NCBI GenBank assembly: GCA_016124195.1
Contig: WGOE01000012.1
Coordinates: 124,001 to 188,000, forward strand
Origin: a bacterium
GTDB taxonomy: Bacteria; Pseudomonadota; Alphaproteobacteria; Rhodobacterales; Rhodobacteraceae
DNA: 64,000 bases
Direction: 5' to 3'
Within the stretch, counting starts at the first letter, position 1. Every line of letters starts with the position of its first letter. Below the pieces are notes generated by a model. That model ran no database searches, had not been told where the DNA came from, and worked only from the letters and a program-made list of their open reading frames with translations. Below are positions 42,260 to 52,454 of this stretch, in pieces. Made by a program: the position numbers and the translations under genes.

Positions 42260-43801
42260 ATGTATGCATCACATGGCTTCCTGCGCTCCGACATCGGCGA
42301 TGTCGACGTGATCTGGCATGAGGGAACCTACCACCTCTTCCATCTCGTCCTGCCGAACCACGACTTCATCGCGCATGCGGTTTCGACCGACGGTCTGGCC
42401 TGGCGCAGGGTGAAGAACGCCCTTTTCGTGGGCGAGCCCGGCGAATGGGATGACGACATGCTCTGGACCATGCATGTCACGCCCGACCCCGACCGCAGGG
42501 GCCAGTGGCGGATGTTCTACACCGGGTTGACGCGGGCGGAATATGGCCGGGTGCAAAGGGTCGGGCTGGCGCGGTCGGCCGATCTGTTCACCTGGCGCAA
42601 ATCCGGCGCCCCCTATCCGCTGCAATCGCCCGGCGCGCCCTATGAATCCGGCGTGGACGAGGGGCGGCACTGGGTCAGCTTCCGCGACCCCTTCTTTTAC
42701 CACGAGCCGGAGACGGGCACGCGTCTGCTGCTGGCCTCTTTGCGCGTAAAGGACGGGCCGGTGATCCGGCGCGGCTGTGTCGGCCTTGCGCGCGAGACCG
42801 CGCCCGACCGGTTCGATTTTGGCCCGCCGCTGCACTGGCCCCGGCTTTACGATGATATCGAGGTGCCCAACCTCTTCAGGCTGGGCGGGCGCTATTACCT
42901 GATGGGCTCGATCCGCGAGGATACCAAGATCCACTACTGGTATGCCGACAAGATCGAGGGACCTTTCGAGAATTTCCATGACAACGTGCTGTTGCCGCAG
43001 GGCAATTATGCCGGCCGGATCTGCCGGGCGGAGGGGCGCATCCTGCTGTTCAGCTTCTTCAGCGCGACCGAGGTGGTCGATGGCCGGCCCTATGCCAAGA
43101 AACTGCTGCCGCCGCCGAAAGAGATTGTCCTGGGTCCCGGCGGCCGGCTGCGACTGAAATCCTTCCATGTCTTTGACGATCTGGTGACCGACCGGGCCGA
43201 ACTCGATGCCACATCCGCCCTGCGCCCGCTGACCGGCAATCCCGAGGCCCGGGCCGAGCTGCGCGACGCCATGATCTACCTGGCCTGCAAGAGCGGCTTT
43301 GAAGCCTTTCTTCTGCCCGGCCGGCACGAGGAGTTTCGCCTGCGCGCCGAGGTCGTGCTGGAAGGGTCGGGCAAGACCGGCCTTCTGCTGCGTACGACGG
43401 ATGCGGGCGACGGCTATTACCTCGCGCTCGACCTTGTGAACGGGTTTGCGCAGATCCGGGCCTGGGGCGCCAATCCCTCGCCCGAATTCGAACATGCCTT
43501 CCGCTTCGCGCCCCTGCAGGAGGCGCAGTTCCGCGGCGCAGCCCATGGGCCCTGGCGGATCGAGGTGGTGGCCCATGGCACCTATCTGGAAGTGTCGATC
43601 GACGGCTATGTCGTCCTCAGCCTCGTCGATGACAGTTTCATGGCCGGCGCGGTGGGGTTCTATGTCGAATCCGCCACGCTCGGCCTCAAGAACCTTGCGA
43701 TCGAGACGCTGAGCCGCCCGGTCATCGAGCAGGCCCCCGAGATGGTCTATACCGCCACCCACGCGCCGGACCTTGTGACCGGCGGCGGGATCGACGCATG
43801 A
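42260..43801 (+). CDS. glycoside hydrolase, five-bladed beta-propeller type (GH32/GH43-like) with C-terminal beta-sandwich
   Basis: DIGDVDVIWHEGTYHLFHLVLPN, WVSFRDPFFYHEPETGTRLLLAS, EVPNLFRLGGRYYLMGS; C-terminal GSGKTGLLLRTTDAGDGYYLALDL. Confidence 0.75.
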   Translation: MYASHGFLRSDIGDVDVIWHEGTYHLFHLVLPNHDFIAHAVSTDGLAWRRVKNALFVGEPGEWDDDMLWTMHVTPDPDRRGQWRMFYTGLTRAEYGRVQRVGLARSADLFTWRKSGAPYPLQSPGAPYESGVDEGRHWVSFRDPFFYHEPETGTRLLLASLRVKDGPVIRRGCVGLARETAPDRFDFGPPLHWPRLYDDIEVPNLFRLGGRYYLMGSIREDTKIHYWYADKIEGPFENFHDNVLLPQGNYAGRICRAEGRILLFSFFSATEVVDGRPYAKKLLPPPKEIVLGPGGRLRLKSFHVFDDLVTDRAELDATSALRPLTGNPEARAELRDAMIYLACKSGFEAFLLPGRHEEFRLRAEVVLEGSGKTGLLLRTTDAGDGYYLALDLVNGFAQIRAWGANPSPEFEHAFRFAPLQEAQFRGAAHGPWRIEVVAHGTYLEVSIDGYVVLSLVDDSFMAGAVGFYVESATLGLKNLAIETLSRPVIEQAPEMVYTATHAPDLVTGGGIDA

Positions 43802-44526
43802 GCGGGGCCGCGGGGCGCTGGCTTCTGGTCAGCGATATCGACGACACGCTGACGGGCGACCCCGCGGGCCTGAATCGCCTCTGGCAGGCGGTGCAGGCGC
43901 GGCGCGGCGGGCTTTTGCTGGCGCTCAATTCCTCGCGGCCGGCGGCCAGCGTCGATGCCACGCTTGCGCGGGACTTTCCGCCCGGTTTCGCGCCGGATGC
44001 CGTCATCACCGGCATGGGCACCCAGATCCGCATCGGCGGCCAGTGGGACGCGGATTGGGCCGCGCGCTTTGCGGATTGGCCGCGCAACCGGGTGGTGGCC
44101 CTGGTCGCGGGCCTGGGCTTTGCCCCGCATCCGCAGGCCTACCAGACCCCGGCCAAGGCCAGTTTCGCCGTGCCACTGGCCGCCCGCGATGGAGTTCTGG
44201 CGGCACTTGCGGCGCAGGATCTGCCCGTGCGGGCGATCTTTTCGGGCACAAGCGACCTCGATCTGCTGGCGCCGGGGGCCGGAAAGGATGAAAGCCTGCG
44301 GTTTCTTGCCGAAAAGCTGGCCATCGACCCGAGCCGGGTGGTGGCGGCGGGGGACTCGGGCAATGATCGGGCCATGTTCGAGGCTGCGGCCTGCGCCATC
44401 GCCGTCGGCAATGCCAGGCCAGAGCTTCTCGATACCATGCCCGCGGCCAAGACTTACCGCGCGCGGGCGCACCATGCGGCTGGGGTCCTTGAGGGACTGA
44501 TCGCGCTGGGCATCCTGCCCGGCTAG
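43798..44526 (+). CDS. HAD hydrolase, sucrose-phosphate-phosphatase-like
   Basis: LLVSDIDDTLTG, ALNSSRPAAS, GMGTQI, KDESLRFLAEKLAIDPSRVVAAGDSGNDRAMF. Confidence 0.85.
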   Translation: MSGAAGRWLLVSDIDDTLTGDPAGLNRLWQAVQARRGGLLLALNSSRPAASVDATLARDFPPGFAPDAVITGMGTQIRIGGQWDADWAARFADWPRNRVVALVAGLGFAPHPQAYQTPAKASFAVPLAARDGVLAALAAQDLPVRAIFSGTSDLDLLAPGAGKDESLRFLAEKLAIDPSRVVAAGDSGNDRAMFEAAACAIAVGNARPELLDTMPAAKTYRARAHHAAGVLEGLIALGILPG

Positions 44527-44565
44527 CGGGTGCCGCGAACAGACAGGAGGAACGTCATGCCCGCG

Positions 44566-45843
44566 CCAATCGGCTCGCTCTTGATGATTTCATTGCACGG
44601 CTATGTGGCCGGCTCGCCCGAACTGGGCAAGCCCGACACCGGCGGCCAGGTGGTCTTTGTCCTCGAACTGGCCAAGCGTTTTGCGCGGCTGGGCTACAAG
44701 GTCGATGTGATGACCCGCAGGTTCGAGGACCAGCCCGCCGAGGATGTGATCAACGACAACCTGCGCATTTTGCGTATTCCCTTCGGCGGCAGGGATTTCA
44801 TCCGCAAGGAGGACATGCACGACTGGTACGGCGATTTCATCAGCAATGCGCTGGCGATGATCCGTGCCCGCAAGCTTGGCTATGACGTGGTCAACAGCCA
44901 TTACTGGGATGCCGGTGTGGCAGGCCAGAAGATCGCCGAGGAACTGCAGATCCCCCATATCCACACGCCCCATTCGCTGGGCTGGTGGAAACGGGCCGAC
45001 ATGGCGGGCAGCCCGCCCGAAGAGATGGCCGGCTACCGCTTTGAAGAACGCATCCGCAAGGAATTCGTGCTTTATCGCACCTGCGACCATGTGATCGCCA
45101 CCTCCGAACAGCAGGTCGATCTGATCGCCAGGGAATATGTCCTGCCGCGCGACCATATCACCATGATCCCGCCCGGCATCGACGAGAACCGCTTCACACC
45201 CGCAACACCCGAGCGGGTGGCGGAGGCGCGTGCGCGGTTGGGCATCGGGCCGCGGGATGTCTATGTCGTGGGCCGCGCGGCCGAGAACAAGGGCTACGAT
45301 CTGATCATCCAGGCACTGCCCGCGCTGCGTATCCTGCAACCAGAGGCGCGGCTGGTTCTCGCCGCCGGCGCCAATTCCGACAGCGACCTGGCGCTGCTGG
45401 CCCAGTGGAAGGCCATCGCCGCCGAGACGGGTGTCGCCGATGCGGTCGATTGGCGCGGCTATGTCGCCGATGCCGATCTGGCCGACCATTACCGCGCGCC
45501 CGGCGTCTTTGCCTTGCCCTCGCGCTATGAACCCTTCGGCATGACGGCCGTCGAGGCCATGGCCTGCGGCACGCCCACGGTGATGACGATCCATGGCGGC
45601 CTGCATGAACTGGTGGAATTCGGCCGTCATGCGCTGGTGGCCGATCCCAAGCGCCCCGAGGAATTTGCCGCCATGATCAACATGCCGCTGCAATATCCCC
45701 GCCTGCGCGAGGCCCTGACGGTCGAGGGCGCCCGCTTTGCCCGCAGGGTCTTTGGCTGGACCGGCATCGCCCGGCGCACGCTGGCCGTCTTTGAACAGTT
45801 CCGCGGCCGCTATGACGCCTATGCGCCAGAGGCGGCGGAATAG
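44566..45843 (+). CDS. GT4 glycosyltransferase, sucrose-phosphate-synthase-like
   Basis: MISLHGYVAGSPELGKPDTGGQVVFVLELAKRFARLGYKVDVMTRRF; HTPHSLGWWKR; PSRYEPFGMTAVEAMACGTPTVMT. Confidence 0.88.
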   Translation, partial: PIGSLLMISLHGYVAGSPELGKPDTGGQVVFVLELAKRFARLGYKVDVMTRRFEDQPAEDVINDNLRILRIPFGGRDFIRKEDMHDWYGDFISNALAMIRARKLGYDVVNSHYWDAGVAGQKIAEELQIPHIHTPHSLGWWKRADMAGSPPEEMAGYRFEERIRKEFVLYRTCDHVIATSEQQVDLIAREYVLPRDHITMIPPGIDENRFTPATPERVAEARARLGIGPRDVYVVGRAAENKGYDLIIQALPALRILQPEARLVLAAGANSDSDLALLAQWKAIAAETGVADAVDWRGYVADADLADHYRAPGVFALPSRYEPFGMTAVEAMACGTPTVMTIHGGLHELVEFGRHALVADPKRPEEFAAMINMPLQYPRLREALTVEGARFARRVFGWTGIARRTLAVFEQFRGRYDAYAPEAAE

Positions 45844-47374: not shown

Positions 47375-47803
47375 TTACCAGTGACCGGTGTTGCCCATGC
47401 TGGCCCAGGGCTCTTGCGGCGGCAGGGCGTCGCCCATCTGCAGGATCTCGATCGAGACATTGTCAGGGCTGCGCACGAAGGCCATGTGCCCGTCGCGTGG
47501 CGGCCGGTTGATCGTCACGCCGGCGGCCTGCAGCTTGGCGCAGATCTCGTAGATATTGTCGAACGCATAGGCCAGATGGCCGAAATGCCGGCTGTCCGAG
47601 GGCAGGCCGCTGTCGCCATCCCAGTTGTAGGTCAATTCCACCGGCGCCTCGGGCTGCCCGGGCGGGGCCATGAAGACCAGCGTGAAACGGCCCTTTTCAT
47701 TGACATAGCGCCGGGTCTCTTCCAGCCCCAGAAGCTTGTAGAAGGCGATGGATTTATCGAGGTCCAGCACCCGGACCATGGTGTGCAGATAGCGAACTTG
47801 CAT
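47375..47803 (-). CDS. gloA: lactoylglutathione lyase (glyoxalase I)
   Basis: YLHTMVRVLDLDKSIAFYKLLGLEETRRY; HFGHLAYAFDNIYEICAKLQAAGVTINRPPRDGHMAFVRSPDNVSIEILQ. Confidence 0.92.
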   Translation of the reverse strand: MQVRYLHTMVRVLDLDKSIAFYKLLGLEETRRYVNEKGRFTLVFMAPPGQPEAPVELTYNWDGDSGLPSDSRHFGHLAYAFDNIYEICAKLQAAGVTINRPPRDGHMAFVRSPDNVSIEILQMGDALPPQEPWASMGNTGHW

Positions 47804-47858: not shown

Positions 47859-49235
47859 TCAGAACCGCGACTTCACCGAAAGGCTGATCCCGGCGGTCTG
47901 CGTGTCATAAAGTGCCACATTGCTGCGATTGCGCGAGAAATCCAGCGACAGAACGGGGGCAAAGCCCAGATAGGTCATCTTGTCGATCTCTGCCGTCAGG
48001 CTCGCCGCCCAGCGGACATCGTGCCGCCCGATGGCGGTGAAGGGCGAGGCGGCGTAATCCGCGCCGCGCAGCGACAGGCTGGCGCCAAAGCCCAGGCCCG
48101 CCACCGGCTGGCGCGCTTGCCAGCCCAGGCCCAGGCTCGCCTCGGCATGGTCGATGCCGATGTCCTGCGAGGCGACGCGCGCCAGCGTCAGCCCGGCCTG
48201 CCATTGATCGCCGCGCGGTCCGGCCAGATCATAGGTCGCCCCCACATCGGTCTCGGTCGAGGACGAGACCGGTCGGTCGAGCCGGATCTGCCGCGTGACG
48301 GAGGTCGACCAGGTCGCAAGCCCCGGACCCACAGGTTGCGCCAGATCGAAGGACAGTTCCACGCTGTTGGACAGATCGCTGCCGCCATACCAGCTGTGCC
48401 CGCCGGTCAGCCCGGTGGTCAAAAGGCCCAGCGGCGATGCGGTCTTGTACTCCAGCCCGGCCTCGACATGACCCAGCGCGTAATCGCCGTTGCGCGCATT
48501 GGGCGCCTGCGCCCGCGCGCTGTCGGACAGGATCACGCCCTGCTGGCTGGCGGCAAAGGTCAGGGCGGTCTGGCTGGTCGCCGTCTCGCCCAGTTTCAGG
48601 CGGCCCTGCACGCCCAGACCCCAGGCGAGGCCCGACAGCGCCAGCGCATCGCCCGACAGGATGAACGGGATGCCCTGATATTCAAACAGCGGATCACGCG
48701 CCCCGCCGTTCACATTGTCGGACGGCCGGAGCGAGGCATCGACCTGCAGGCTCAGCGGATTTTGCGAGCGCACATAGGCGAAATCCTGCAGCGCCTGACC
48801 CTGGGCCGCCGCATTGGGTGCGTTCTGCACGGCGCGGCGCAGCCAGAACTGCGCGCGGGTCCGGTGGTCCTGCAGGCTCAATGCCTGCGCCACGGCAGAG
48901 GCCGCCGCAAAGCGCAGCGCCGGCGTATCGGCCGCGGCCCAACCGGCCCGTGCGGCCGCCTCGCTGTCGGGCAGGTGCTGGAGGATGCGCAAGGCCTGCG
49001 CCTTCAGGATCAGGGCCTGCGCGTCCTGCGGATCGCGCGTCAAAAGCGTCTCGGCGATCTGCAGCGCCTGTTCGGCATAGCCGTTCAGCAGCGCCTGAGC
49101 GCCGAAGGCCCGCATCTGATCGACGTTCAGAACCGCGGGTTTGGTCCATGCCACGCCGCTGCCAGGGATGCTCAACAGGCTTGCCGCCCCGGCCAGCAGC
49201 GCTGCCCGGACGGCGCGCCGCAAGGGCCCGGTCAT
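47859..49235 (-). CDS. TPR plus outer-membrane beta-barrel protein, Slam-like (surface lipoprotein assembly modifier / T11SS translocon candidate)
   Basis: Signal peptide; TPR-like helical N-domain (ALLNGYAEQALQIAETLLTRDPQDAQALILKAQALRIL); beta-rich C-terminal half ending ...SLSVKSRF; ATGA overlap with the upstream lipoprotein gene. Confidence 0.7.
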   Translation of the reverse strand: MTGPLRRAVRAALLAGAASLLSIPGSGVAWTKPAVLNVDQMRAFGAQALLNGYAEQALQIAETLLTRDPQDAQALILKAQALRILQHLPDSEAAARAGWAAADTPALRFAAASAVAQALSLQDHRTRAQFWLRRAVQNAPNAAAQGQALQDFAYVRSQNPLSLQVDASLRPSDNVNGGARDPLFEYQGIPFILSGDALALSGLAWGLGVQGRLKLGETATSQTALTFAASQQGVILSDSARAQAPNARNGDYALGHVEAGLEYKTASPLGLLTTGLTGGHSWYGGSDLSNSVELSFDLAQPVGPGLATWSTSVTRQIRLDRPVSSSTETDVGATYDLAGPRGDQWQAGLTLARVASQDIGIDHAEASLGLGWQARQPVAGLGFGASLSLRGADYAASPFTAIGRHDVRWAASLTAEIDKMTYLGFAPVLSLDFSRNRSNVALYDTQTAGISLSVKSRF

Positions 49236-50293
49236 TTCCGGTAAAGGATGAAGCCGCCGGTCTCCCGCGCCGTGTAGCCGGTGAACTGTGAGGTCACCAC
49301 GATGACGCCCGCCACCTCGTCCTTGCCGCCCGCGGTGGCATCGCCCGACAGGACGGCATAGTATTTGCCGGCTTCGAACACCGTGGGCGTGCCGTTGATG
49401 GTGATCGTGTTGTCCAACTGGCCCTGCATTTCGCCATTGTTGTCCAGATTGCCCGGTCCCACCTTGAAAACCATGGTCGGCAGCGCCACAAGCGGCGTGT
49501 CGGGCTTCTTGTCGGCATTGATGCCGGCAATGACGTCAGCGGTGATATCCTTGCCGTTCAGATCAAAGATCTTGCGGTTGTCAACATAGCCGGTGATCCC
49601 TGCGCCATTCCCGGTGGCCGAGGTGTCCGGGTTGAAGTCATTGAAGTCGATCGCCATATGCGCCGTGCCAGAGGTGATCTGCAACCCACTCGCGCCGCTG
49701 AAATCGCGCAGGCCCGCATAGGTGCCCTCGTAATTGGCCTGTCCCGTCGTGGGCAGGGTGACCCCGCCGATCCGGTTGTAGATGAAACCGCCAAAGCCAT
49801 AGTCGCGATAGGCGCCGGTCCGCACGATGGCGAAATTCGTGTTGCCCGAGGTTGAGACGCCGTAAAGCGCACGGTACGAGAACTGGTCGATCAGCGTATG
49901 CGTCACCGTGTCCGGATAGGTGCCCGACCCGGCATAGACCTTGGCGCCGCTGATCGTCATCTTGGCCCCACCCGGCCTTGTGGCGCGCTGGTAGACATTG
50001 CCGCCGTCGAACGCCAGATTGTCCACCGTGAAGGTGTCGGCGGTTTGATCATAGCTGTAACCCTTGGCAAATCCATTGCCGGTGGTCGCGTCAAACGCTT
50101 CCGCCCGCGAGATGTCACCCACCGCCGTTGGTGACGCCGTGCCCGGCAGGTTGTTGCCGCTGGTCTCATTCACCGAGGCGTTGCCTGACGCGCCGCCTGT
50201 GCCACTACCGCTGCCGCCCGATTTCGCCAGAGGGTTGCCGTCACAGGACGCCAAAAGCAAAAGCGCCATAACGGAGATACGAACTGCCGACAT
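49232..50293 (-). CDS. lipoprotein, candidate Slam cargo with TbpB-like C-terminal beta-barrel
   Basis: MSAVRISVMALLLLASC lipobox; Gly/Ser linker; beta-rich body ending TGYTARETGGFILYRK; start 50293 or 50305. Confidence 0.7.
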   Translation of the reverse strand: MSAVRISVMALLLLASCDGNPLAKSGGSGSGTGGASGNASVNETSGNNLPGTASPTAVGDISRAEAFDATTGNGFAKGYSYDQTADTFTVDNLAFDGGNVYQRATRPGGAKMTISGAKVYAGSGTYPDTVTHTLIDQFSYRALYGVSTSGNTNFAIVRTGAYRDYGFGGFIYNRIGGVTLPTTGQANYEGTYAGLRDFSGASGLQITSGTAHMAIDFNDFNPDTSATGNGAGITGYVDNRKIFDLNGKDITADVIAGINADKKPDTPLVALPTMVFKVGPGNLDNNGEMQGQLDNTITINGTPTVFEAGKYYAVLSGDATAGGKDEVAGVIVVTSQFTGYTARETGGFILYRK

Positions 50294-50470
50294 AATGCCC
50301 CACATGTTTCTTTTCGTTTTGCCCCAACCTTGCCGCAACCGGGGGCAAAGGTCAAAACTCGGCTGAAGTTTGCCGAATTTCCCCGTACCCTGATGCAGAG
50401 CCGCACCACTGGCCTTTCCCCGGCCTGACCCGCTATTCTGAGGCCGACTCAATCGCGAAAGGCCTTGCCC

Positions 50471-51394
50471 ATGCCGCTCTCTCCCGAACAACTGGCCGAA
50501 ATCGAGGCCGCACGGGCCACCCCGCACCTGACCCTGCGCGCCGTCTCGGAGGGCATGGAGGCGCATCTTTACAAGGCCAACCCGGTGCTGGACCACGGCC
50601 TCGTGCGCGTCATCGACTATATGGGCGACGACGGCGCCATCGTTCAGGCCGCCCGCGTCAGCTATGGCGCCGGCACCAGGCATGTCTCGAATGACGAAGG
50701 GCTGATCCGCTACCTGATGCGGCACTGGCACTCGACCCCGTTCGAGATGTGCGAGATCAAACTGCACGTCAAACTGCCGGTTTTCGTCGCGCGCCAGTGG
50801 ATCCGCCACCGGACCGCCAATGTGAACGAATACTCGGCCCGCTATTCGATCCTGGACCGCGAGTTCTATATCCCCGAACCGGCCCATTTGGCCGCGCAAT
50901 CCACCGTGAACAACCAGGGCCGCGGCGCCGTGCTTGAAGGCGCCGAGGCGGCCCGCGTTCTCGACCTTCTCAAACGCGATGCGGCCACCGCCTACGACCA
51001 TTACGAGGCGATGCTGAGCGAGACCCAGCCTGACGGCACACCGCAGCAGGGCCTCGCCCGCGAATTGGCGCGGATGAACCTGCCCATGAACATCTATACC
51101 CAATGGTATTGGAAGGTGGATCTGCACAACCTCTTCCACTTCCTGCGCCTGCGGGCCGATGCCCATGCCCAATACGAAATCCGCGTCTATGCCGAAGAGA
51201 TTTGCCGTCTTGTGAAAGACTGGGTGCCCCTGGCCTATGCCGCCTTCGAGGATTACCGGATGGGCGGCGTCACGCTGAGCGGCAAGGCGGTGGCGGTTCT
51301 GAAACGGCGGCTGAAGGGCGAGGCCGTCAGCCAGGAGACGAGCGGCATGAGCAAGGGAGAGTGGCGCGAGTTCGAGGCGGTTTGGGGGCAGTGA
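50471..51394 (+). CDS. thyX: FAD-dependent thymidylate synthase
   Basis: [22 protein letters not shown] ThyX signature. Confidence 0.95.
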
Positions 51395-51455: not shown

Positions 51456-51538
51456 GTGGGTCCGGGGCAACCCCGACGTTTTATCCCCGCGATTGCGCAT
51501 TTGCGATATCGGCGGGGTCGGGGTGGCCCCCGACCTAC
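51456..51538. repeat. Inverted pair of REP-like palindromes (BIME-like) at the RAYT 3' end
   Basis: GTGGGTCCGGGGCAACCCCGAC (51456..51477) and GGGTCGGGGTGGCCCCCGACCTAC (51515..51538). Confidence 0.75.
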
Positions 51539-52071
51539 GGGTTATCCCGGTGAAATGAGGAATATGGCCAATCCTTGGGGTCCTCCACCAACCCGTGTTT
51601 CACCGGATTGAGCCAGCAATACCGGACATGCGCGGCATAGTCTTCCTCGCCCCGGATGTGATGCTCCCAGAACCGTTTCTGCCAATAGCCGGATTCGGTG
51701 CGTAGGTCGGGGGATACCCCGACTCTCCTCCCCTCATCCGCACGCACGCGCCCGGCAATCGCGCCATAATCGTTCGCGGCGGGAGTCGGGGTAACCCCCG
51801 ACCTACCCAATTCCCGCGAGAACCGCGCCTTCAGCATCCCCATCCGGTTGGAGTAATCCGCATCGCCCTCTGGCAGGGTCCAGACGCAATGCATGTGATC
51901 GGGCAAGACCACCCAGGCGTCGATCCGGAACGGCTTGTCGCTCCTCGTGCGGCGCGCGGCATCGCGCAGGACATCGATGTGGCGGATCAGAAAGTCCGAA
52001 CCGCGCGCAGCCAGATTGACCGTGAAGAACACGGTCGCGCCGGGCATCCTGGGGCGAAGATAGCGGGACAT
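51535..52071 (-). mobile_element. REP-associated tyrosine transposase (RAYT, Y1/HUH type)
   Basis: DAWVVLPDHMHCVWTLPEGDADYSNRM (HxH motif), YWQKRFWEHHIRGEEDYAAHVRYCWLNPVKHGLVEDPKDWPYSSFHR. Confidence 0.92.
51702..51806. repeat. Inverted REP pair inside the RAYT coding sequence
   Basis: GTAGGTCGGGGGATACCCCGACTC (51702..51725) and GAGTCGGGGTAACCCCCGACCTAC (51783..51806); reverse complements with one mismatch. Confidence 0.9.
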
Positions 52072-52454
52072 CGACCCAGTCTGGACTGCGATGCTTAAGA
52101 AATCGCTACCGCTCGCGGCGTTCCTTTGGCCCGGCACGCGACATCCGAGGTCGGGCTGCCGCCGCGGGCGCCAATGGCCAAGGTTGTGCGGCACCTCGCG
52201 CCTTCGAGATCCGGTTTCGTTGCCAAGGTTCGGGGAATTCCTGACCCATGTTCAGGCACGGCTTCGCTGGACCGGGGCGTGCCGGTTCCGCGACAAGGGC
52301 AAAGGCCCGGCCTTTCCTGACGGCCTTTCCCGCGGCTCTTCACGGCCGCAAAGAATCGGCTCTGGCGCCAATTCTTGCGAAAAAACCACATGCGCCCGCC
52401 CGTGGCTCACACTTCTGTAACATGCCTTCGTCTGGACCTCGGGCACGTCCGCGT

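Follow-up and report, generated by a model that had tools for sequence, protein, structure and literature searches.

A predicted Slam exporter (type XI secretion) of the cluster 3 kind, with its probable cargo lipoprotein, in a Rhodobacteraceae bacterium

The window analysed here is a stretch of 64,000 nt from a Rhodobacteraceae bacterium (GCA_016124195.1, contig WGOE01000012.1, positions 124,001-188,000). It carries two adjoining genes, both on the minus strand. The upstream gene encodes P0001, a predicted cargo lipoprotein of a type XI secretion system (T11SS; 49232-50293, 353 aa from ATG 50293, or 357 aa from ATG 50305), and the downstream gene encodes P0002, a SlipAM/T11SS outer-membrane protein (47859-49235, 458 aa). 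As a previous reading of the letters alone had claimed, the two ORFs overlap by an ATGA at 49232-49235, which combines the stop codon of the cargo gene with the start codon of the SlipAM gene, and a spacing of −4 nt or similar is also seen in relatives. Two neighbours are conserved among the 80 related loci described below. A glyoxalase/lactoylglutathione-lyase-like gene (47375-47803, minus strand, PF00903) lies downstream of the pair in 74 of them, with no evident role in export, and the divergent thyX gene (50471-51394, plus strand, PF02511, E 3e-57) is found in 60. The neighbours scanned at 43.8-52.8 kb belong to other families than TonB receptors, haem genes or iron genes, in agreement with the absence noted earlier. 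The partner TonB receptor or nearby iron and haem genes expected of a TbpB/HpuA-like iron or haem receptor are therefore not seen in this region. Within the same region, a sucrose-phosphatase-like gene and a sucrose-phosphate-synthase-like gene adjoin each other (43798-45843), both scoring below the NCBIfam equivalog cut-offs, and a REP-associated tyrosine transposase (NF047646, E 6e-51) occupies 51535-52077 on the minus strand. A palindromic GTCGGGG..CCCCGAC element is present in three copies within 51514-51809, one at the transposase stop codon and two inside its frame.

P0001 has the lipobox, the Gly/Ser linker and the GGFILYRK C-terminus that had been ascribed to it. The lipobox LASC (50243-50254, minus strand, Cys codon 50243-50245) closes a type II signal peptide, and its Cys is invariant in 60 aligned cargoes. 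The Gly/Ser-rich linker that follows (50147-50242) is mostly disordered in the structural model, with a pLDDT below 50 over residues 26-50. The gene is thus present as described, except that its start is probably ATG 50293 (MSAVRIS...) and not ATG 50305. Indeed, the cargoes of the nearest relatives start with MSAVR, and the close relative L047, which starts with MSAVRIY, has the sequence AAGTGAGGCATT directly before this ATG. In L047, the TGG of the window is thereby replaced by an in-frame TGA, between ATG 50305 and ATG 50293, and we prefer the start at 50293 because of this stop downstream of the 50305 equivalent and because of the shared MSAVR beginning. Upstream of the pair lies a weak candidate promoter (50327-50355, minus strand), with TTGACC as −35 (50355-50350), a spacer of 17 nt and CAAGGT. 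Its position matches that of a TTGACTT element found in about 30 relatives, which in most cases lies 57-80 nt ahead of the cargo start and probably provides the −35 for the operon of cargo and SlipAM; a generic promoter scan did not find the candidate at 50327-50355. Another element, (C)ACTATATCT, occurs near thyX in the thyX-cargo intergenic region of 29 of 56 relatives (for example L055, L102 and L109) and is absent from the window. It could be the thyX −10 (TATAGT on the thyX strand) or an NrdR-like box.

P0002 likewise shows the predicted features, namely an N-terminal hydrophobic signal peptide, a TPR-like helical domain, a second half rich in beta structure and the C-terminal end SVKSRF. 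In its AlphaFold model (pLDDT 94.7), the signal peptide precedes seven TPR-like helices (residues 38-158), and 14 long strands span residues 161-456. The putative N-terminal periplasmic TPR domain (residues 38-158, 48762-49124, minus strand) is recognised by TPR_19 in 29 of 59 orthologues, and P0002 alone matches TPR_14 with an E-value of 0.039, below the cut-off of that model. The modelled 14-strand outer-membrane barrel (residues 161-458, 47862-48755, minus strand) ends with a Phe as outer-membrane C-terminal signal; a terminal S-x-F is found in 59 of 59 aligned orthologues, and a C-terminal Phe in all 75 complete barrels of relatives. Slam proteins have been described as tetratricopeptide repeats followed by a predicted 14-stranded barrel (PMC5449769). 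PF04575 (SlipAM, formerly DUF560) matches residues 345-458 of P0002 (E 1.5e-7, 31.7 bits against a cut-off of 22), and it does so at E <= 0.01 in 48 of the 59 orthologues. This is the only Pfam barrel match above its cut-off, so that the barrel belongs with SlipAM/DUF560, as anticipated, and not with an unrelated porin or TPR family. P0002 is the only SlipAM protein of the source genome. Elsewhere in the family, a second and more distant SlipAM lineage lies near Pfam-recognisable TbpB_B_D genes (G016:C12, G030:C8, G174:C1, G228:C12 and G283:C659), so that the family seems to hold T11SS of two kinds.

The AlphaFold model of P0001 (pLDDT 87.1, pTM 0.83) places two domains after the disordered linker. 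The N-terminal beta domain (residues 54-188, 49742-50146, minus strand), delimited from the model and the alignment, is the presumed ligand-binding part, and the C-terminal beta barrel of the TbpB type (residues 189-357, 49235-49741, minus strand) is the presumed exporter-recognition part. Eight strands, one of them short, are counted in this barrel, plus a helix in one loop, a helix likewise described for published cluster 3 relatives (PMC12282271). A fold search of 350,542 PDB chains returned fHbp, TbpB or HphA as 20 of the 21 best matches (ranks 1-18 and 20-21, E 2.9e-5 to 1.5e-3), rank 19 being an unrelated DUF3598 protein. Generic eight-strand outer-membrane proteins match only at E-values of about 0.015-0.06. 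The TbpB-like barrel fold that had been expected of the lipoprotein is thus borne out by its closest solved folds; fHbp, TbpB and HphA represent the class of surface lipoproteins exported by Slam. Whole-chain TM-scores against fHbp and TbpB are low (0.2-0.6), and we therefore claim kinship for the barrel, as a local match, and not for the full architecture. According to the model, the eight-strand C-terminal barrel of P0001 is akin to the TbpB/fHbp-type barrel. Pfam gives no match for P0001 itself, neither TbpB_B_D nor FHBP_C exceeding its cut-off, and for this reason we keep the protein at the rank of predicted cargo. Among its relatives, weak FHBP_C matches occur in 26 of 60 cargoes, sub-threshold and within the C-terminal barrel in those examined individually, and the TbpB_B_D cut-off is passed only by certain shorter ones, among them L039 at the same locus, where the match again falls in the C-terminal barrel. 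The lack of a Pfam match in P0001 bears on the sensitivity of the models more than on the fold of the barrel. Sequence searches of the PDB with P0001, P0002 or the cargo profile gave chance matches only.

We then asked how constantly the two genes are paired in the family. A search of GTDB genomes with the cargo profile yielded 80 loci, and SlipAM was directly downstream of the cargo in 80 of 80, mostly with a gap of −4 to +13 nt. Conversely, among 249 family genomes at least 90% complete, 126 strong SlipAM orthologues (E <= 1e-60) were found in 123 genomes. As in the window, a cargo gene lies directly upstream of 114 of these 126, and 116 of the 123 genomes contain a cargo, although both counts are inflated because the loci behind the barrel profile (A4) had been selected by their cargo. 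The genome-level association has a Fisher p of about 2e-59, a value that overstates the case since related genomes are not independent. In a small barrel-only search, free of cargo selection, 19 of 20 loci had an ORF that stops a short distance before the barrel gene, and a lipobox was recognised in 16 loci; of the remaining four, three are at contig ends. Of the 12 SlipAM orthologues that have no recognised cargo alongside, one is preceded by a shorter lipoprotein, two lie close to a contig end, and in at least three thyX adjoins the barrel, as read from antisense ORFs. The co-occurrence in related genomes on which the sequence-only reading depended is therefore found across the family. Cargo and barrel distances are also correlated (r 0.59), with a partial r of 0.49 once glyoxalase and thyX distances are removed, a value reached by 0 of 500 permutations. 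These distances indicate that cargo and barrel diverge together beyond what is seen for two merely linked genes.

A syntenic cluster 3 T11SS locus was reported in 2025 in Rhodobacteraceae/Roseobacteraceae, with thyX, a lactoylglutathione lyase, DUF1194 and a predicted cargo lipoprotein (PMC12282271, Fig. 8). The window locus has the same genes as the loci of Ruegeria pomeroyi and others shown there, namely thyX, glyoxalase, SlipAM and lipoprotein, and the cluster 3 cargo shares with P0001 the C-terminal barrel, the N-terminal beta domain and the barrel loop helix. It differs in DUF1194, which is found neither in the window locus nor in the source genome. Homologues from R. pomeroyi and Aliiroseovarius crassostreae were recovered in our searches (L085, L095), and on the basis of this shared synteny and species we assume that our barrel set overlaps with the published one. 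The window locus is a further member of the published cluster 3 T11SS kind and not a new kind of system. Accordingly, the description of the pair as a divergent alphaproteobacterial T11SS with an uncharacterised cargo was fair in its wording, but this type of locus had already been predicted to be a T11SS with cargo. With Neisseria Slam1/Slam2 and their TbpB, HpuA and fHbp substrates (T11SS cluster 1), the pair has in common the SlipAM family, the TPR domain with a 14-strand barrel, and an adjoining lipoprotein with a TbpB/fHbp-type barrel. It differs in that its sequences are distant, no TonB-dependent receptor, haem or iron gene was found alongside, and P0001, unlike the Neisseria cargoes, is not recognised by the Pfam TbpB model.

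The same study found TbpBBD in only 8 of 145 cluster 3 loci and inferred that cargo is scarce or that its targeting domains are novel; DUF1194, present in 102 of the 145, was raised as a possible new cargo type (PMC12282271). In the 249 genomes, the Pfam model TbpB_B_D recognises only about 6 of the 114 adjacent cargoes (coordinates compared by eye), so that a good part of the reported cargo rarity comes down to model sensitivity, and the rarity of known cargo domains in cluster 3 looks like being largely a detection limit. It could nevertheless be argued from the published count, and from the presence in many relatives of DUF1194 genes not far downstream of the barrel, that DUF1194/vWA proteins are the true cluster 3 substrates and that the lipoprotein is a partner or a remnant, a suggestion left open in PMC12282271. 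We consider this very unlikely. DUF1194 is absent from 18 of the 123 genomes with a strong SlipAM, the source genome included, and 17 of these 18 carry the cargo; moreover, it is present in 92 genomes without a strong SlipAM orthologue, and its odds ratio with SlipAM is 2.2, against about 1000 for the cargo. DUF1194 might still be an additional substrate in some species.

The nearest PDB folds of P0002 raise another question, as they are the TPR-barrel exporters PelB (PelBC) and BcsC, followed by porins such as CymA, with no Slam structure among the 50 best matches listed. Since glycosyltransferase genes lie about 2 kb from the pair, P0002 could be a different TPR-barrel exporter or porin, for example a PelB-, BcsC- or PgaA-like polysaccharide exporter, with the lipoprotein as an accessory. 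However, no Pfam barrel model other than SlipAM scores above its cut-off, the partner folds in the manner of TbpB/fHbp, a fold for which we know of no use in polysaccharide systems, and the nearby glycosyltransferase resembles a sucrose-phosphate synthase beside a sucrose-phosphatase-like gene and does not form a synthase/exporter operon. The SlipAM match, the partner and the sucrose-phosphate-type neighbours together make a polysaccharide exporter highly improbable. It could also be supposed that the lipoprotein reaches its location independently of P0002 and that the two genes are linked by co-transcription only; we found in the literature no export assay for cluster 3, nor any experiment on surface display of a cluster 3 member. 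The tight translational spacing, the near-perfect co-occurrence and the co-divergence in excess of two linked genes all speak against this idea, to which we give very little weight. Altogether, P0001 and P0002 are very probably the cargo and the exporter of a Rhodobacteraceae type XI secretion (Slam) system of the cluster 3 kind, which upholds the initial proposal of a Slam system encoded with its own lipoprotein cargo; barrel family, lipoprotein fold and co-occurrence each turned out as that proposal expected.

What the cargo may bind is best approached through its conservation. The most conserved stretch of P0001 is residues 119-188 (0.71, against 0.58 for the barrel), with D132, R162, the YGFGG of 169-173 (including Y169) and R178 invariant. 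No His is invariant among 60 cargoes, the best His column reaching 70% with a Tyr in the window, and 10 of the 60 have no His at all; nor is any Cys or Met conserved in these cargoes apart from the lipobox Cys and the start Met. P0001 matches the fold of the haemophilin HphA, itself a T11SS cargo (8gm3, 8glo), but the cluster 3-type cargoes differ from HphA in having no invariant His and thus give no indication of haem ligation by His. Nor is there support for nickel or haem as the ligand, which the glyoxalase neighbour or the fold of HphA might bring to mind, given the lack of an invariant His and the ten His-free cargoes. In 74 loci, the sequence upstream of the cargo showed no box for Irr, Zur, FNR or Mur, a loose iron-box pattern occurring in 4 sequences only, and nothing in the regulation therefore points to a metal ligand. 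As judged from the alignment, the residue conservation of the cargoes favours weakly a ligand that is itself conserved, and speaks as weakly against a metal or haem bound by His; the argument is weak because the well-conserved acidic residues and tyrosines could bind Ca2+ or other ligands, and because the shorter cargoes at the same locus (such as L037-L043) differ in the 119-188 part.

By analogy with characterised Slams, P0001 would be made with a type II signal peptide and lipidated, and Lol would carry it to the outer membrane. There, the SlipAM protein would recognise it through its C-terminal barrel, and the lipoprotein would pass through or along the SlipAM barrel to the outer surface, where it would fold and stay lipid-anchored. 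With less confidence, we suggest that the exposed N-terminal beta domain may bind a ligand shared across much of the family, because the long cargoes show strong conservation here, whereas TbpB and fHbp have variable host-binding faces.

The 2025 study left three options for cluster 3, that is, mostly no cargo, unrecognised targeting domains, or export of DUF1194 (PMC12282271). Our results point to a cognate cargo of the TbpB type beside about nine in ten barrels, below the detection limit of Pfam, and the modest new result is the consistency with which cluster 3 barrels carry such a cargo. More tentatively, and with rather less than even confidence, we speculate that most of these barrels have a single cargo family dedicated to them, which co-evolves with the barrel, escapes standard domain models and binds, through its conserved N-terminal domain, a ligand that is neither haem nor of host origin. 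If so, this T11SS would have an environmental, housekeeping role and would not serve interaction with a host. The two genes come from a largely free-living group and are suited to direct tests of T11SS export and of a non-host cargo function.
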